NCBI RefSeq assembly: GCF_000374925.1
Contig: NZ_KB895551.1
Span: 1 to 64,000, forward strand
Length of the DNA stretch: 64,000 bases
Direction: 5' to 3'
Source: Arthrobacter sp. 131MFCol6.1
GTDB lineage: Bacteria > Actinomycetota > Actinomycetes > Actinomycetales > Micrococcaceae
How positions within the stretch are numbered: position 1 is the stretch's first letter; each line of letters starts with the position of its first letter. Below are positions 29,370 to 63,634 of this stretch, piece after piece. The notes under the pieces were generated by a model that did not search any database, was not told the DNA's origin, and was given only the letters and a program-made list of their open reading frames with translations. The position numbers and the translations under genes were made by a program.

Positions 29370-29417
29370 CCTCCCTGGGCTCCTAGGCTCCTAGGCTCCC
29401 TAGGTTCCCTTGCCTCG

Positions 29418-29500
29418 AATTCGCCGGAAACCCGCGGGCTCGCCGGAAACCCGCGGGCTCGCCGGAAAGTTCCGGCGAGCCCGCAGGCTTCCGGCGAATT
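29418..29500. repeat. Dispersed palindromic repeat, family 1, copy A (with internal duplication)
   Basis: An 83-bp palindrome from AATTCGCCGGAA to TTCCGGCGAATT. The left arm contains a tandem duplication of CGCCGGAAACCCGCGGGCT. It is intergenic between two plus-strand genes. Related copies lie at 30299, 37647 and 62906. It would form a long hairpin in DNA or RNA. Confidence 0.85.
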
Positions 29501-29591
29501 GGACTCGCCTGCCCCGCGGGGCCCCGACGGTTCCCGGGCACACAGTCCTTAACCGGCGAAATATCCTCGCCTGCCCGGGTGTTGCCCCGGC

Positions 29592-30233
29592 ATGACAACA
29601 ATCGGAATCATCGGTGCAGGGCACATCGGCGGCCAGATCGCCCGCAAGGCCGTGGAGCTCGGCTACGACGTCGTGATCAGCAACTCGCGCGGGCCGGAAA
29701 CCCTGGCGGACCTCGTCGCGGAACTGGGGCCCAGGGCCCGGGCCGCAACGCCGGCCGAGGCGGCGGCAGCCGGCGACTTCGCCGTCGTGACCGTGCCGCT
29801 CAGGAGCCTCCCGGACGTCCCCGTGGAGCCGTTGGCGGGCAAGATCGTCCTCGACACCAACAACTACTACTGGGAACGCGACGGGCATATCCCGGCTTTG
29901 GATGCCGGCGAGGCCACCACGTCCGGCCTCCTGCAGGAGCACCTTCCCCAGTCCAAGGTGGCCAAGGCTTTCAACCACATCATGTCCAGCCAGATCACCG
30001 CGGACGGTACGCCGGCCGGCACCCTCAACCGCCGGGCCCTGGCCACGGCGAGCGACTTCCCGGAAGCGGCTGAGCTTGTGGCCAGGCTCTATGACGAATT
30101 CGGCTTCGACACCGTCAATATGGGCCCGGTCTCCGAAAGCTGGCGCGCGGAACGGGACCGCCCGGCCTACGTGATCCGGCAGAACGCGGCCGAGCTCACC
30201 GAGAACCTGGCCAAGGCGCCGCGCACCATCTGA
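29592..30233 (+). CDS. NADP-dependent F420-reductase-like Rossmann protein
   Basis: A 213-residue protein of the NADPH-F420 oxidoreductase/NAD_binding coenzyme-F420 family. The N-terminal TTIGIIGAGHIGGQIARKAV is the dinucleotide site, followed by ISNSRGPETL, where Ser-Arg suggests NADP preference. VLDTNNYYWERDGHIP and AKAFNHI are typical of the family members annotated as NADP oxidoreductases. Substrate unknown; many homologues do not use F420. It is monocistronic, convergent with the tetrose-type operon and separated from it by palindrome copy B. Confidence 0.82.
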   Translation: MTTIGIIGAGHIGGQIARKAVELGYDVVISNSRGPETLADLVAELGPRARAATPAEAAAAGDFAVVTVPLRSLPDVPVEPLAGKIVLDTNNYYWERDGHIPALDAGEATTSGLLQEHLPQSKVAKAFNHIMSSQITADGTPAGTLNRRALATASDFPEAAELVARLYDEFGFDTVNMGPVSESWRAERDRPAYVIRQNAAELTENLAKAPRTI

Positions 30234-30298
30234 CCGGGTCCTGCCCGGCCCAGGACCCGGCCCAGGACCCGCTGTCCCATCCTGGCCCGGGCGCGCGA

Positions 30299-30362
30299 AA
30301 TCGCCGGAAGCCCGCGAGGTCGCCGGACTTTTCCGGCGGGCTCGCAGCTTTCCGGCGAATTC
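30299..30362. repeat. Dispersed palindromic repeat, family 1, copy B
   Basis: About 64 bp running from AATCGCCGGAAGCCCGCGAG to AGCTTTCCGGCGAATT. It sits between convergent genes, 16 nt past the end of the six-gene operon, and probably serves as a terminator in both directions. Nearly identical to copy C. Confidence 0.85.
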
Positions 30363-30378
30363 GGCCGGGGGGTGGGCG

Positions 30379-31242
30379 TCAGCGCTGGGCGGCGGGCTCG
30401 AGCTTGAGCATCTTGGCGATGACGTAGTCCAGCTCGGAGTCGTCGAAGATCTTCTTCCAGTCGTCCTTGATGATGGTGTCCTTGCCGTACTGGATGGCGA
30501 TTTCGCAGGCCTCCGAGAACGGGTTGGAACCGCGGAGCGCGTTGGTCAGGGCGATCTGGACGTGCCCGAACAGCATGGCCTTGGCGGCTTCCTCGGGGAC
30601 GCCGGCGGTGTGCACGGTCTCGTGCAGGGCTTCCTTGAGTAGGGTGCCGATCATGCAGGCGACGGTCTCGACGAGGGTGGGCTCGAGGATGGCGAGCTGC
30701 TTGACGGTGACCCAGTGGACGTCGATCACGGGGGCGTAGATGACCTTGATGGTGGCCTCGGCGGCGGCGCGGGCGGCTTCGGTGGCATCCTCGTCGATCG
30801 CGGCAACCACGTTCTGCGGGGCGCCCTGGCCGCCGAAGGTGTCGGCCCATTCTTCCTTGGTGGTGCGCTCGAGGAAGACCGAGGGGTGGCACGGGTGGGC
30901 CACGGCCTGGACGACGTCCGCGCGCTTGGCCAGCAGGCCGGCGTAGGCGGCGGCCGGGTCGAGGGTGAGCAGGATGGCGCCGGACTTCATCTGCGGGACC
31001 ACGCCGTGGGACACGACGCCCAGGACGGTGTCCGGGACGGCGAGGATCACGACGTCGGCGTCCTTGATGGCGTCCTCGGTGGTGCTGATTTCCCGGCCTT
31101 CGGCGCGGACGCGGTCCTGGCCTGCCGGCGAGTTCTCGCTGTAGTAGACGGTGTGGGCGCTCTTCTGGAGGTTGGCTGAAACACGCAGCCCCATTTTGCC
31201 TCCGGCTCCGATGACGGCGACGGTCAATTGTTCTGCTGACAT
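30379..31242 (-). CDS. 6-phosphogluconate-dehydrogenase-like oxidoreductase (PGDH_C type)
   Basis: A 287-residue protein. Its N-terminus TVAVIGAGGKMGLRVSANLQ is a Rossmann site, followed by DADVVILAVPDTVLG. The C-terminal helical part (LEPTLVETVACMIGTLLKEA, GSNPFSEACEIAIQYGKDTI, DDWKKIF) resembles the phosphogluconate dehydrogenase C-terminal type also seen in D-apionate oxidoisomerase-like enzymes. It probably oxidises a hydroxy-acid or ketose substrate with NAD. AAGGAG for its ATG lies inside the last codons of the preceding gene, with 1 nt between them, so translation is coupled. It is the last gene of the operon; the substrate is unknown. Confidence 0.78.
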   Translation of the reverse strand: MSAEQLTVAVIGAGGKMGLRVSANLQKSAHTVYYSENSPAGQDRVRAEGREISTTEDAIKDADVVILAVPDTVLGVVSHGVVPQMKSGAILLTLDPAAAYAGLLAKRADVVQAVAHPCHPSVFLERTTKEEWADTFGGQGAPQNVVAAIDEDATEAARAAAEATIKVIYAPVIDVHWVTVKQLAILEPTLVETVACMIGTLLKEALHETVHTAGVPEEAAKAMLFGHVQIALTNALRGSNPFSEACEIAIQYGKDTIIKDDWKKIFDDSELDYVIAKMLKLEPAAQR

Positions 31243-36838: not shown

Positions 36839-37603
36839 TTGAAGGTGTCCGTTAACTCCGCCGCTTCGACGGCAAAAATCAGTGCTGCGCTCGGTTCTAT
36901 GGAGCAGGGCTCTGTTGTGTCCGAAGTCGCGGAACGCCTCTTGGGCTACTTCACGAGCGGTGAAATTGCCGTGGGAACCCGCCTGCCGGCCGAGCGCCAA
37001 CTCGCCGCCTCGCTGGGGGTCGGACGCTCCGCCGTCCGCGAGGCCCTCGCGGCGCTGGAGATCCTTGGGATTGTCATTGTCCGGCCGGGTTCCGGAACGT
37101 ACCTTCGAGACGGCATTTCCGAGCTCCTCCCCCGCACGCTGAGCTGGGGCCTCATGCTGGGCGCCCCGCGCACGCGCGAACTGGTGGAATTGCGCGGCGG
37201 GCTCGAGGTGCAGGCCGGCCAGTTGGCGGCGCAGCGGATTACCGACGACGCCCTGGACCGGATGCGCGCCAATCTGGCCACGATGGAGCGCAGCCTCGAG
37301 GACCTGGCGACGTTTGTGGAGGCCGACGCGGCGTTCCACCGCGAAATCGCCGCAGCCTCCGGCAACCAGGTCCTGCAGGAACTGCTCCAGAGCATCCGGT
37401 CGCTGCTGCGCATCTGGGTTGACCGCGCTCTGACGGACGAAGGGCACGCGGCATCGGCCCTGGCCGAGCACCGGGAGATCTTCCGCGCCCTGGAATCACG
37501 CGATGAGGCCGCCGTGACGGCAGCCATGCGCTCCCACATGGACACGGCCTCCCGGCGCCTCCTGGCCGGGTTCGACGCCGACCAGGGCTCCGCCGGAGGC
37601 TGA
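36839..37603 (+). CDS. FadR/GntR-family repressor of the adjacent operon
   Basis: A 254-residue regulator (from TTG 36839; GTG 36845 and ATG 36899 are alternatives and none has a clear ribosome site). The winged helix is at about 22-90 (RLPAERQLAASLGVGRSAVR, LEILGIVIVRPGSGTYLRDG) and an FCD effector domain at about 105-245 (LVELRGGLEVQAGQLAAQR, EADAAFHREIAAASGN). It diverges from the transporter gene, and a 14-bp palindrome overlaps that gene's promoter. The effector is probably the imported substrate or a phosphorylated intermediate. Confidence 0.88.
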   Translation: MKVSVNSAASTAKISAALGSMEQGSVVSEVAERLLGYFTSGEIAVGTRLPAERQLAASLGVGRSAVREALAALEILGIVIVRPGSGTYLRDGISELLPRTLSWGLMLGAPRTRELVELRGGLEVQAGQLAAQRITDDALDRMRANLATMERSLEDLATFVEADAAFHREIAAASGNQVLQELLQSIRSLLRIWVDRALTDEGHAASALAEHREIFRALESRDEAAVTAAMRSHMDTASRRLLAGFDADQGSAGG

Positions 37604-37646
37604 AGCCGGCTAACGCCTCCTCACCCCACGCACGAGTTCGACGCGC

Positions 37647-37712
37647 GAATTCGCCGGAAGCCTGCGAGCCCGCCGGACTTTTCCGGCGGGCTCGCAGCTT
37701 TCCGGCGAATTC
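37647..37712. repeat. Dispersed palindromic repeat, family 1, copy C
   Basis: A 66-bp palindrome from GAATTCGCCGGAAGCCTGCG to TTCCGGCGAATTC, nearly perfect over its whole length, between two convergent genes. This is the cleanest copy of the family and differs from copy B at only a few positions. Confidence 0.88.
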
Positions 37713-37729
37713 GGCCGGTGCGAGGCCCG

Positions 37730-38500
37730 TCAGCCGCGTCTCCTGTCGCGGTCCGGCACATCCTTTCCGAGCCAGGCGCTCACCAGCAGCCACACGGACC
37801 ACACCAGAATCAGGACGATTCCCGAGAGCGTGGGAATGGTGTTGGCCGGGGAGAAACCTACGGCCCCGATGATCCAGCCCTGGGCGAGGTAGGCGAGCCC
37901 GGAAAGCGCCATGAGATAGCCGATCAGCCGGGAAATGCGGCGGGCACCGACGACCACGGCCCCGGTCAGGATGAGTGCTGCACCCAGCACGAAGCTTTGG
38001 TAACTGCGCATCCCCCACTCCAGCCACCGGATGCCCTCGGCCGTCGCAAACCGCGCAGCCCTCTCCGGCTCCGGAGCCGCAAACCAGGCGTCCACGGCGT
38101 GCTTCAGTGCGACGCCGTCGACAGCTTGGAGCGCGGCATACAGCGCCAGTGCCGCGACGGCAGCCACAGCGCCGAAGCGGGCTGTCCAGGTCATGGTCCC
38201 GTCCGGTCCTTTCAGGACCATCAGCAGGACCAGCAGCCCGGCGATCAGAAGCGCCATGCCGACGAACTGACCGAGGTGGACGGCCGTCCAGATGCTGCTG
38301 CCGGCATACTCCGTGAAGGTCGCCGGGTGGTCGTTGGCGCTGGCCGTATCGGCATGGAGCAGCCCGGCGACCACGGACAGCGCGAAGCCGGCAAACGCCA
38401 GCGTGGCGGCCAGGCGCAGCGGCGCACGGGCTGATGACGGGCGCCCGGACTCGGCCGAAGCCGCCGGCCGCGGATTATGATCTGTGCCGTACTTCTTCAT
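37730..38500 (-). CDS. Integral membrane protein of unknown function
   Basis: A 256-residue protein with about six membrane helices (for example LRLAATLAFAGFALSVVAGL and LGQFVGMALLIAGLLVLLMV) after a polar N-terminal tail of 25 residues. The external loop has HADTASANDHPATFTEYAG, conserved-looking but without a recognised motif. An AVDGVALKHAVDAWFAAPEP segment lies between helices. Similar proteins are annotated only as hypothetical or DUF4386-like. It is monocistronic and convergent with the FadR-type gene across palindrome copy C. Confidence 0.75.
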   Translation of the reverse strand: MKKYGTDHNPRPAASAESGRPSSARAPLRLAATLAFAGFALSVVAGLLHADTASANDHPATFTEYAGSSIWTAVHLGQFVGMALLIAGLLVLLMVLKGPDGTMTWTARFGAVAAVAALALYAALQAVDGVALKHAVDAWFAAPEPERAARFATAEGIRWLEWGMRSYQSFVLGAALILTGAVVVGARRISRLIGYLMALSGLAYLAQGWIIGAVGFSPANTIPTLSGIVLILVWSVWLLVSAWLGKDVPDRDRRRG

Positions 38501-42968: not shown

Positions 42969-43033
42969 GGGTTCTGGGACACGGCTGGCCCGGTCTCCGC
43001 GCCATCGGCATCCCCGGCATCCGCGGCATCCCG

Positions 43034-43094
43034 CCGAGTGGGCACTTCATGGCAGTGTTGTTCACCAACATTGCCGCGAAGTGCGCACTCGCGG
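43034..43094. repeat. Dispersed palindromic repeat, family 2, copy 1
   Basis: About 61 bp from CCGAGTGGGCACTTCATGGC to GCGAAGTGCGCACTCGCGG. The arms match imperfectly. It lies between convergent genes. It aligns along its full length with the palindrome at 50166-50227. Confidence 0.8.
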
Positions 43095-43114
43095 AGCCGA
43101 AGCGGGCGGCCGGA

Positions 43115-50141: not shown

Positions 50142-50165
50142 GAGCCGCCACCCCGGAGTTGTGCG

Positions 50166-50227
50166 CCGAGTAGGCAGTTCGCGGCAGTGTCCCCCACAAA
50201 CACTGCCGCGAACTGCCCACTCGCGTC
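50166..50227. repeat. Dispersed palindromic repeat, family 2, copy 2
   Basis: About 62 bp with arms GGCAGTTCGCGGCAGTGT and its complement, flanked by GAGT and ACTC, around a loop of about 9 nt. It sits between convergent genes and is homologous to the palindrome at 43034-43094. Confidence 0.85.
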
Positions 50228-50266
50228 GGCCGGGGAACCGAAACGGCGGTGCAGGCTGCCGCGGCC

Positions 50267-57731: not shown

Positions 57732-58271
57732 CTACTCCCCCGTTTCGCCGTCCACGGCCTCGCGGAGGAGGTCGGCGTGGCCGTTGTGCCGGGCATACTC
57801 CTCGATCATGTGGCACAGGATCCAGCGCAGGCTCGGCGCCGAACCGTCCGGCCACGGGCGCCGGGCCAATTGGTCCAGGCCACCGGCGGCCAGGGCCTCC
57901 GCGACGCTGGCCCGGGACCGGTCCACGGCTTCCTGCCACAGGGTGCGCAGCTGGTCCGGGGTGTCCCCTGCGGCGGAATGCCACTCCCAGTCCGGGTCGG
58001 CCTTCCAATCCACGGCGGCGAACGGGGCCTCGCGGTCCCGGGCGTGCAGGGACCGGGAGAACCATTCGCTCTCCACATAGGCCATGTGCTTCAGGAGCCC
58101 GCCCAGTGTCATCGATGAGGCAGCGGTGGTGGCCACGAAGCCGGCCGCGTCCAGTCCGGCGCATTTCCACGCCAGCGTGGCCCGCTGGTAGTCCAGGAAT
58201 CCCACGAGGGTCGCGGTTTCGTCGGCAGCAAGGGGAGGCTCCGGGCGGCCCTGATCATCCACAATCGTCAT
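57732..58271 (-). CDS. DinB/DUF664 family protein
   Basis: A 179-residue four-helix-bundle protein with MTLGGLLKHMAYVESEWFSR, LRWILCHMIEEYARHNGHAD and LLREA, giving the three His of the DinB metal site. Actinobacterial DUF664 members are mycothiol-dependent transferases or isomerases of unknown substrate. Its ATG overlaps the upstream DUF2306 stop by 4 nt, so it is co-expressed with that gene. Confidence 0.88.
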   Translation of the reverse strand: MTIVDDQGRPEPPLAADETATLVGFLDYQRATLAWKCAGLDAAGFVATTAASSMTLGGLLKHMAYVESEWFSRSLHARDREAPFAAVDWKADPDWEWHSAAGDTPDQLRTLWQEAVDRSRASVAEALAAGGLDQLARRPWPDGSAPSLRWILCHMIEEYARHNGHADLLREAVDGETGE

Positions 58272-59047
58272 GCGCGTGAGTCTAGCCGCCCGGACTCCAC
58301 CTCGCCGGAAACTGTCCGCTTCGCCGGAAAAGTGCGGCGTTCCGGCACGCTTGCGGCGACTTCGACGACGACGGCGGCGGGCACCCGAACGGTCCGCCTG
58401 GCGCGCCGGTGGATGACGTACTCGGCCACCGCGACGTTGATCACCCAGGCTGCCCCCAGGAGCACCGCCCGGGTCGGCTCGTCAGGCGGACCCACCAGCA
58501 GGATCCACGGCAGCCCCGTCAGCGCCTGCGTTCCCGCGGCGACGCCGATCGCGTAGCCGCGGGTCATCCACGCGCCGTGCCGTACAAAGTCCCGGCGCAC
58601 AACCGCCACGACTCCCAGGACAATGCTCGCCGCCATGGCCGAGCCGAAGACCAGCCGCAGCACCAACAGCGCCAGGCCGTCCCCGGGCGGCAGCGGATAG
58701 AAGACTGCCATCCACAGGCCGGACAGGGCCGCCAGCAGGCCCGCGGGCGCGAGGATGCGGCCGGCGATGCGGTGCCAGCCGCGGCGGCCCCGCAGCGAGG
58801 GGAGGAACTGGAACGCCCCGAGCAGGCTGTAGGTGGTGACACTGAGGATGTGCGTCACCACGGGCACGGGCGAGGCGAAGAACCGGGCGTTCTGGGCGGT
58901 GATGGCGGCACCGCCGGTCAGTTCCGTCAGCCGCGCCGCGCCCGCGATCACCGGGATGAGGCTGAGAAGGATCAATCCGGCGGGCACCGGCCACTGGGGG
59001 CGGCGGCGGACACGGGGGACGGGGGCGTTGCTGGCGTGTGTTGTCAC
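58268..59047 (-). CDS. DUF2306 membrane protein
   Basis: A 259-residue membrane protein of about seven helices (VPAGLILLSLIPVIAGAARL near residue 20, VTHILSVTTYSLLGAFQFLP, RGRRGWHRIAGRILAPAGLL). The histidine-bearing helices, for example VTHILSV and GWHRIAGR, are typical of DUF2306, which may bind haem. The C-terminal 30 residues (EVAASVPERRTFPAKRTVSG and beyond) are encoded by a degenerate copy of palindromic repeat family 1. The gene diverges from the TetR-type regulator with two operator palindromes between them. Confidence 0.82.
   Translation of the reverse strand: MTTHASNAPVPRVRRRPQWPVPAGLILLSLIPVIAGAARLTELTGGAAITAQNARFFASPVPVVTHILSVTTYSLLGAFQFLPSLRGRRGWHRIAGRILAPAGLLAALSGLWMAVFYPLPPGDGLALLVLRLVFGSAMAASIVLGVVAVVRRDFVRHGAWMTRGYAIGVAAGTQALTGLPWILLVGPPDEPTRAVLLGAAWVINVAVAEYVIHRRARRTVRVPAAVVVEVAASVPERRTFPAKRTVSGEVESGRLDSRA
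58300..58353. repeat. Degenerate copy of palindromic repeat family 1 inside a gene end
   Basis: CTCGCCGGAAACTGTCCGC... to ...TTGCGGCGACTTCG follows the order of CGCCGGAA motifs seen in copies A, B, C and E but with many mismatches. It lies within the last codons of the DUF2306 gene. The match may be coincidental. Confidence 0.35.
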
Positions 59048-61848: not shown

Positions 61849-62862
61849 ATGAAGCGTGTGGTGATCGACCGCTTCGGCGGCCCCGAGGTCCTGCAGGTGG
61901 TGGAGGTCGAGGATCCCCGGCCCGGCCCGGGCGAAGTCCGCGTCAGGGTCCTGGCTTCGGGGGTCTCTTTCACCGACGCACAGTTGCGCGCCGGCACCTA
62001 CCTCGGCGGACCGAAGCCGCCCTTCACGCCCGGCTACGAGCTCGTCGGCATCGCTGATGAGATCGGGCCCGGTTGCTCGCGGGTACGGGTCGGAGACCGG
62101 ATCGGCGCGCTGACGGTGTGGGGCGCCAACGCCGAGCTCGTCTGTGTGCCGGAGGCATACGCGGTGGAGGTGCCTGAGGACCTCGACCCGGCCGAGGTCG
62201 TGAGCCTCGTCTTCCCCTATATGACCGCCTACCAGCTGCTGCACCGGACGGCTCAGGCGAAGCCCGGGGAGAGCGCTCTGGTTCACGGCGCGGCAGGCAG
62301 GGTGGGCACCGCTATCCTCGAGCTCGGAGCACTGGCCCGCCTGCGCCTCTACGGGACCGCCGCCGGCGCGGACCGAGCCGCAGTGGAGCGGCTGGGCGCG
62401 GTGGCGATCGACTATCAGAACGAGGATTTCCTGGCCCGAGTGCGCGGGCTCACCGGCGACGGCGTAGACATTGCCCTTGACGGGATCGGTGGGCCGTTGT
62501 CGCTGCGCTCCTTCCGCGCGTTGCGGCCCGGCGGTCGGCTCGTTGTGTTTGGCCGCTACGCCACGATCGCGCAGGGGCGCAAGAACTGGCCGGGGGTGAT
62601 CGCCTGGTACGCGGCAACGGGGAGCGTCGCGCTCTGGGGCTGGCTGTCACCCCGCCGAAAAGTGCTGTCCTACCGGATCCAGAAGTTGCGCATCCATCAC
62701 CAGGACTGGTTCAGGGCAGACTTCTTCGCCCTGCTCGAGATGCTTCGCCGCGGCCAGATTCACCCGGTGGTCGCCGAGCGCCTGCCAATTTCCGACGTTC
62801 GTCGCGCCCATGAGCTGCTGGAAAGCACCGCGGCGAAAGGGAAGATCGTGCTCGTACCCTGA
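61849..62862 (+). CDS. Quinone-oxidoreductase-like medium-chain dehydrogenase
   Basis: A 337-residue MDR protein with an N-terminal GroES-like domain (RVLASGVSFTDAQLRAGTY, PFTPGYELVGIADEIGPG) and a Rossmann domain at about 135-260 (ALVHGAAGRVGTAILELGAL). Structural and catalytic Zn ligands are missing, as in zeta-crystallin-like NADPH:quinone reductases. Substrate unknown. It is monocistronic and followed by palindrome copy E. Confidence 0.87.
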   Translation: MKRVVIDRFGGPEVLQVVEVEDPRPGPGEVRVRVLASGVSFTDAQLRAGTYLGGPKPPFTPGYELVGIADEIGPGCSRVRVGDRIGALTVWGANAELVCVPEAYAVEVPEDLDPAEVVSLVFPYMTAYQLLHRTAQAKPGESALVHGAAGRVGTAILELGALARLRLYGTAAGADRAAVERLGAVAIDYQNEDFLARVRGLTGDGVDIALDGIGGPLSLRSFRALRPGGRLVVFGRYATIAQGRKNWPGVIAWYAATGSVALWGWLSPRRKVLSYRIQKLRIHHQDWFRADFFALLEMLRRGQIHPVVAERLPISDVRRAHELLESTAAKGKIVLVP

Positions 62863-62905
62863 GCCGGCATGGCTGACGCCGCGGCACTAGGCGTAAGGCC
62901 CCGCC

Positions 62906-62973
62906 GAGTTCGCCGGAAGCCTGCGAGGTCGCCGCAAGGTTCCGGCGACCTCGAGGGTTTCCGGCGACTTCGC
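62906..62973. repeat. Dispersed palindromic repeat, family 1, copy E
   Basis: About 68 bp from GAGTTCGCCGGAAGCCTGCG to TTTCCGGCGACTTCGC, with central TCGCCGCAAGGTTCCGGCGA. It lies between two plus-strand genes and shares the order of motifs of copies B and C, with compensated changes in the middle. Confidence 0.8.
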
Positions 62974-63061
62974 GCACCACAGCCGGCATACATGCGCGCG
63001 GCCGCCGCACCCGGGACCATCGACGCGCCCCAACGCCACGATGGGAGGATAGTTTTAGGGC

Positions 63062-63634
63062 ATGACGGCAAGCTACAGGTACGACGTCGAGATCCTGCAC
63101 CTCCTCGTCTCGCCGGCGCACGCCTACTTCGGCCGCGCCCGCGATGGTGCGGCGCAGGTCCCCACGACGGACGCGGAACAAGTCGAACTGGTGGCCGGCA
63201 AGGGCATCGTCGGCGACCGGTTCTTCGGCAAGGCTGCGCACATGGACGCCGCCGTCACCCTCCTCTCGATCGAGGCCATCGAGGCGATGGCCGAGGAGCT
63301 GGGAGCCGGACCCTTTGACCCGCTCCTGACCCGGCGGAATGTGGTCCTCCGGGGCGCCCACCTCGCTCCCCTGCTCGGCGAAGAGTTCGCGCTCGAATCA
63401 AGGGGGGACGTGGTCCGGATCCGGGCCGGACGGCCAGCCCACCCCTGTGCCTGGATGGACCGGATGCTTGCCCCGGGCGCGCACGCCGCCATGCGCGGCC
63501 GGGGAGGCGTGCGCTGCCAGCCCCTTTCGACCGGCCTCCTGAGCCGCGGCCCGGCCGTGCTGGTCAGCCCCGTGCCGCTCGACCCCGGACAGGCCGGCGT
63601 CCCCACGCTGCTGCGCCCGTCCCGGCTGCCGTAG
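63062..63634 (+). CDS. MOSC-domain protein
   Basis: A 190-residue MOSC domain (LVAGKGIVGDRFFGKAAHMD, LLTRRNVVLRGAHL, LESRGDVVRIRAGRPAHPCA, GRGGVRCQP). The Cys in HPCAWMD is at the position thought to bind sulfur or the molybdenum cofactor. Such proteins carry a sulfur or molybdopterin group in reductase or resistance pathways. No partner oxidoreductase is adjacent. The start has only weak AGGG upstream. Confidence 0.88.
   Translation: MTASYRYDVEILHLLVSPAHAYFGRARDGAAQVPTTDAEQVELVAGKGIVGDRFFGKAAHMDAAVTLLSIEAIEAMAEELGAGPFDPLLTRRNVVLRGAHLAPLLGEEFALESRGDVVRIRAGRPAHPCAWMDRMLAPGAHAAMRGRGGVRCQPLSTGLLSRGPAVLVSPVPLDPGQAGVPTLLRPSRLP

Follow-up and report, generated by a model that had tools for sequence, protein, structure and literature searches.

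A dispersed family of REP-like palindromes near gene 3' ends in Arthrobacter, and insertion of an IS3-family element into palindrome centres

REPs usually number more than 100 copies per genome, as stated in the part of PMC2817692 available to us, a paper which also surveys the RAYTs; PMC3733652 gives a survey of the GTAG and CGTC REPs, and IS3-family elements such as IS1397 are described in PMC1525189 as inserting into REPs (both papers likewise available in part). In the accessible part of PMC12306157, a paper on palindrome finding, one Arthrobacter genome is named once, in a table. Here we analyze a family of palindromes, termed family 1, starting from the window, i.e. the whole stretch of 64,000 nucleotides (contig NZ_KB895551.1, positions 1 to 64,000) of Arthrobacter sp. 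131MFCol6.1. A sequence-only reading of this window had described four copies, had compared them to REP-type elements and had known of no described family with their consensus; none was found in the open-licence literature, and Rfam gave no match at gathering score in the window.

The four copies are all present where that reading had placed them. With slightly wider limits they lie at 29414-29504 (first given as 29418-29500), 30294-30365 (30299-30362), 37644-37715 (37647-37712) and 62903-62974 (62906-62973), no strand being assigned to any copy. They account for the window's five top-listed inverted repeats (I1-I5), I1 and I4 belonging to the single copy at 29414-29504, whose left arm contains three 19-bp units and whose right arm contains two. 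Using a covariance model, the scores were 79.9 bits (positions 29433-29504 of the first copy), 78.9, 89.3 (the highest of the window copies) and 79.1 bits, respectively, and the copies at 30294-30365 and 37644-37715, which had been called nearly identical, share 94% identity. Both of these lie in gaps between convergent genes, 29592-30233 (+) and 30379-31242 (-) in the first case and, as called, 36917-37603 (+) and 37730-38374 (-) in the second, and the copy at 62903-62974 is 3' of gene 61849-62862 (+) and 5' of gene 63062-63634 (+). The statement that all copies are in gaps outside genes is correct for these four, but not for a degenerate fifth copy that had been overlooked (58295-58366, 42.1 bits, strand also unassigned), which falls within the 3' end (last codons) of the DUF2306 gene 58268-59047 (-). 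When folded as single strands, the four good copies are much more stable than shuffled sequences (z from -6.1 to -10.8); the fold of the fifth is not better than shuffles, 57 out of 200 being equally stable. Moreover, TTCCGGCGA occurs 19 times in the window versus a mean of 1.3 in 100 dinucleotide shuffles; for the half-arm pattern the numbers are 9 and 0, respectively.

The family-1 palindrome is 66-72 nt long, each arm carrying two TCGCCGGAA blocks at a distance of 19 bp, in the layout CGARTTCGCCGGAA, spacer, TCGCCGGAA, short centre, TTCCGGCGA, spacer, TTCCGGCGAAYTCG, as seen in 16 copies of this genome that align without gaps over 72 columns; the repeat unit is 19 bp. For the model alignment 16 of the 19 copies extracted from this genome were used, leaving out L008, L012 and L016, which are truncated or out of register. 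Searching the 4.43-Mb genome we found at least 23 distinct places scoring 40 bits or more, a lower bound given that 150 of 8585 first-look candidates were scored and matches under 40 bits were excluded; the counts given below for other genomes are lower bounds as well, a limited number of first-look candidates having been scored in each. The 23 places are distributed on 7 of the 24 contigs, nine of them on one 241-kb contig. The two outcomes against which the initial description had set itself, that only these few copies exist or that shuffled sequence matches as well, did not occur, shuffled sequence giving no match at all.

The sequence-only reading had also pointed to paired changes in both arms. 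We analyzed blocks and spacers in 82 of 126 copies from 17 genomes, namely those having every block in register. The claim stands insofar as the 10-nt spacers pair more than in shuffles (62% versus a within-genome shuffle mean of 55%, a value of 62% being reached in none of 1000 shuffles), although only modestly so, and the 9-bp blocks are conserved across all 17 genomes. Covariation in the set from the genome under study exceeds shuffles too. Among 18 orthologous pairs, pairing is kept in 14 of 49 double changes, about what chance gives, and compensatory change at orthologous sites was thus rejected as unsupported. Conserved blocks together with weak spacer pairing argue against a pure RNA hairpin, which would not need block conservation.

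A sequence-specific DNA-binding protein, be it one of chromosome organisation, a topoisomerase or another factor, might instead read the TCGCCGGAA blocks as a four-site array whose 3' placement avoids promoters. Conservation of the blocks and not of the spacers, and a block spacing fixed at 19 bp, agree with such an array, and in one genome (G300) each of the seven copies examined has a shifted block consensus, 12 of 14 arms reading TCGCTGGAA or ACGCTGGAA, as expected of a co-evolving binder. The location of the copies points in the same direction, 13 of 16 in G010 and 5 of 6 in G012 lying in the origin half (clustered copies, hence not independent), that is, the half around an ORF at coordinate 1 of both chromosomes which we take to be DnaA. 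Nevertheless we consider a binding array, though a serious alternative, rather unlikely: no candidate protein is known, pairing of the arms is still far above random, copies resembling the consensus of the genome under study are favoured by the model search, and unrelated hairpins found at the same gene-end place elsewhere (see below) are unexplained by a fixed binding site.

The position of the copies relative to genes, predicted from codon usage by a simple caller for which the window served as training set, was studied for the 126 copies, in which orthologous-site copies are counted separately and which are therefore not independent events. Five are inside called genes and three at locus edges; the remaining 118 are found in convergent (52), co-directional (58) and divergent (8) gaps, compared with 480, 2780 and 1440, respectively, of 4700 control placements in gaps without a copy, so that the positional preference at gene ends proposed for checking by the sequence-only reading was indeed observed. 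The nearest 3' end is at a median of 17.5 nt, with 91% of the copies within 60 nt (n = 110), versus 29 nt and 71% in the controls, and the nearest 5' end at a median of 89 nt (n = 66) versus 30 nt; the 3'-end distance signal is moderate, because the controls are also near 3' ends. Sites are thus mostly just past stop codons and over-represented between convergent genes, and these distances, together with the folds of the four good window copies, place a stable hairpin just 3' of a gene.

Our preferred reading, to which we give a probability of about 0.5, is that family 1 consists of long-resident, RAYT-free REP-like palindromes acting as bidirectional 3'-end hairpins. The palindrome would fold into a long GC-rich hairpin in a transcript coming from either side, and the hairpin would end the transcript or protect its 3' end without a U-tract, one palindrome serving both convergent genes. 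As DNA, the same palindrome might form a hairpin or cruciform whose apex would be used as a landing site by the IS3-family element described below. The family could have originated as an old dispersed or duplicated hairpin family, kept where useful or harmless, its unit number changing by 19-bp steps. Two further observations speak against the hairpin reading: family-1 gaps often score below 12 by an ungapped stem measure, and the U-tract is absent, being found at 2 of 131 family-1 flanks (4 of 252 by a wider measure).

We also explored gene ends in other genomes, taking as an example a PGDH-like gene, on which Arthrobacter sp. Bi26 and ES3-54 were judged to be the nearest named relatives. Within 130 nt of its stop codon a stem scoring at least 12 by the ungapped measure is present in 23 of 37 genomes versus 0 of 360 first-order resamples. 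These hairpins are mostly different sequences, some of them recurring in a few species; clear family-1 copies are found at this place, among the 37 genomes, only in the genome under study, Bi26 and ES3-54, with stem scores of 9, 13 and 7, i.e. two of the three below 12. Since other species carry mostly unrelated strong hairpins at the PGDH-like site, the comparison supports the idea that a gene-end hairpin may be supplied by different, interchangeable sequences. In the genome under study, stems of 12 or more by the ungapped measure were counted separately for gaps that lack family 1 (divergent, 1 of 21; co-directional, 14 of 43; convergent, 4 of 10) and for those that contain it (co-directional, 1 of 10; convergent, 4 of 7). 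A U-tract is present at 2 of 50 flanks of the other 3' hairpins of these loci. A second palindrome type, approximately GAGNNGGCANTTCNCGGCA, was observed in two convergent gaps of the window (42969-43114 and 50142-50266) and also 3' of the PGDH-like gene in other species (L098, L099, L101 and L112).

In a first sample a family-1 match at E <=0.01 was obtained in 35 of 36 relatives of the same genus and in 3 of 22 genomes from other families of the order, none of the latter below E 0.001; a sample of the family gave matches at E <=1e-4 in 33 of 245 genomes, including the one under study, 16 of the 33 belonging to the same genus, and 43 loci from other actinobacterial genomes gave no score above 32 bits. 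Within 1.5 kb of a TGT-like gene a family-1 match of at least 40 bits was present in 16 of 30 genus loci (L191-L220, from 30 of 61 genomes); in G012 the copy lies 17 nt 3' of this gene (89% protein identity to the TGT at L072:3536-4765).

At the level of individual sites, Bi26 and ES3-54 each carry orthologous counterparts of the window copies at 29414-29504 and 30294-30365, and that of 37644-37715 is whole in ES3-54, whereas in Bi26 the end of an insertion sequence cuts its centre. Comparing the whole genome with G019, which we take to be Bi26, 20 of the 23 sites have an orthologous copy there, either whole or split (a count that leaves out C4:133607, C4:210467 and C1:1014398), the flanks of the shared sites having about 85-94% identity, and several sites are also common to G010, G031, G020, G012 and G015. 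Because 20 of 23 sites are occupied in the related strain, the copies look settled, and would be long-resident and inherited vertically. Phage or plasmid cargo was rejected as a source: there was no phage match, and the one match obtained was to a 1.35-Mb Arthrobacter plasmid record. The copies themselves change faster than their flanks, orthologous copies having a mean identity of 0.76 (18 pairs) versus 0.71 to non-orthologous copies of the genome under study, and at one site the unit number differs between species. Concerted evolution of the copies is suggestive only, being proposed on these two identity values, on the block shift in G300 and on a mixed picture of within- versus between-genome identity.

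These data also bear on another explanation, in which an old miniature mobile element (MITE-like, or paired transposase-binding ends) left the copies behind as relics, neutral or slightly harmful, and the 3' bias only reflects tolerated insertions. The consensus common to dispersed copies, two repeated 9-bp blocks per arm resembling transposase binding sites, the fast change of the copies relative to their flanks and the existence of degenerate copies such as 58295 are all in line with relics; conservation of the blocks in 82 copies at sites common to species, on the other hand, is unexpected for neutral relics, other hairpin sequences occupy the same place in other species, and the PF01797 transposase was not found in the genome under study. 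We regard relics as less likely than the hairpin reading, but as a serious alternative to it.

The same search bears on the link to a RAYT that the sequence-only reading had proposed to look for. Besides the absence of PF01797 from the genome under study, only 1 of 204 genus genomes was over the cut-off (a control search found PF01797 in 5 of 14 known genomes), and RAYT linkage was excluded on these grounds. The GTAG tag is near 2 of 46 ends, and CGTC is at 9 of 46, not consistently. The resemblance to REPs is therefore valid in the broad sense, family 1 being palindromic, dispersed, mostly extragenic, near 3' ends and a target of insertion sequences, but not in the narrow sense, which involves a RAYT and a tag. 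With stable sites in addition, it is very improbable that family 1 represents classical RAYT-mobilised REP elements, in spite of sharing their palindromic and dispersed character.

Some gene blocks, containing for instance a serpin gene or a permease gene, are flanked by two palindrome copies (L072:4794-8373, L072:13447-14903 and L092:624-2640). Relatives lack all three blocks: one copy is left at the junction for both L072 blocks, and for the L092 block the junction in the genome under study has none. Loss of a block flanked by two copies in the genome under study, leaving one copy, was observed in several relatives. The idea that genes are gained and lost along seams marked by the palindromes was rejected, the excess of broken gene order being weak: among distinct gaps of at least 72 nt, gene order is broken in 10 of 15 with a copy versus 12 of 38 without (p 0.03), and in 9 of 14 versus 10 of 26 when divergent gaps are excluded (p 0.19).

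The insertion sequence mentioned above is seen in G019, where foreign DNA interrupts the centre of the copy located 3' of the TGT-like gene. The same 129-nt end is present at eight places in this genome; all seven junctions first read are palindrome centres and the eighth place (C4) is not. At the counterparts of window copies 37644 and 62903, two further left-end junctions fall in palindrome centres; the one at 62903 represents the second side of a known insertion, with the same 4-bp duplication on both sides; the counterpart of 58295-58366 is also split. In total, G019/Bi26 has eight insertions in family-1 centres and one copy of the element elsewhere. Seven of the eight, including those at the counterparts of 37644, 58295 and 62903, map to palindromes that are intact in the genome under study, and the eighth (C119) has no match among the loci fetched from it. 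The element is ~1.53 kb long, belongs to the IS3 family and has a transposase in two overlapping frames, the second of which matches NF033516 at 167.7 bits (cut-off 160) and the first at 25.1 bits, under the cut-off. Relatives at E <=1e-80 were detected in 18 of 206 genus genomes, the genome under study not being among those with a match at this threshold.

To see where these relatives land, we used 29 distinct copies with both ends and 8 one-end junctions (loci L304-L311 and L321-L349; 11 of 41 places were left out). A 4-bp target duplication was found in 26 of the 29 two-ended copies and none in the other 3. In 17 of the 29, from 10 genomes, the rejoined flanks form a palindrome around the insertion with a score of at least 18, which is reached at 1.6% of the intergenic positions of the window and 2.4% of those in all loci used, intergenic positions being a fairer null than any position, of which 0.45% reach the score. 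Sorted by eye, the 17 palindromic targets comprise nine that are family-1-like, six of a GTTTCGACGGTTCCC type and two of a third type; one of the 12 copies scoring below 18, L335, looks family-1-like at 15. The preference for palindrome centres is thus strong but not absolute, since 12 of the 29 copies miss the score. The GTTTCGACGGTTCCC-type repeated palindrome was observed in several genomes, where it is also split by the element (L329, L332, L334, L340, L344 and L349). No description of this habit in Arthrobacter was found in the open-licence literature.

Because about three unrelated types of palindrome have the element inserted at their centres, we tentatively propose, as a possibility still short of an even chance, that this Arthrobacter IS3-family clade may find its target by DNA shape, i.e. 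the apex of an extruded palindrome, and not by a fixed sequence. If true, hairpins or cruciforms would be extruded from the gene-end palindromes in living cells, at places recorded by the copies of the element, providing a natural, countable test of palindrome extrusion in cells and of a shape-guided DDE transposase. Family 1 itself is an addition to the REP-like families, one from an actinobacterial genus that is RAYT-free and stays at shared sites, and one role, that of a bidirectional transcript-end hairpin, may be filled by several unrelated repeated palindromes of Arthrobacter.

Compared with known systems, family 1 shares with intrinsic terminators a strong hairpin near the stop codon, often between convergent genes, and differs from them in having no U-tract and in being a repeated family with conserved blocks, for which termination is a prediction only. 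With the enterobacterial and pseudomonad REPs, as far as these are described in the available parts of PMC1525189 and PMC3733652, it has in common that both are short, dispersed extragenic palindromes, often 3' of genes, and that both are targets of insertion sequences. In contrast to GTAG REPs, it lacks GTAG and a RAYT, is 66-72 nt long, has a pair of conserved blocks in each arm, and is present in about two dozen copies at sites common to species, the 23 found being below the usual REP copy number (PMC2817692, in part). Finally, the Arthrobacter element resembles IS1397 and ISKpn1 (PMC1525189, same part) in being of the IS3 family and inserting into repeated palindromes, and it differs from them in that its insertions, within one genus, occupy the centres of about three types of palindrome, 26 of 29 copies having a 4-bp duplication.
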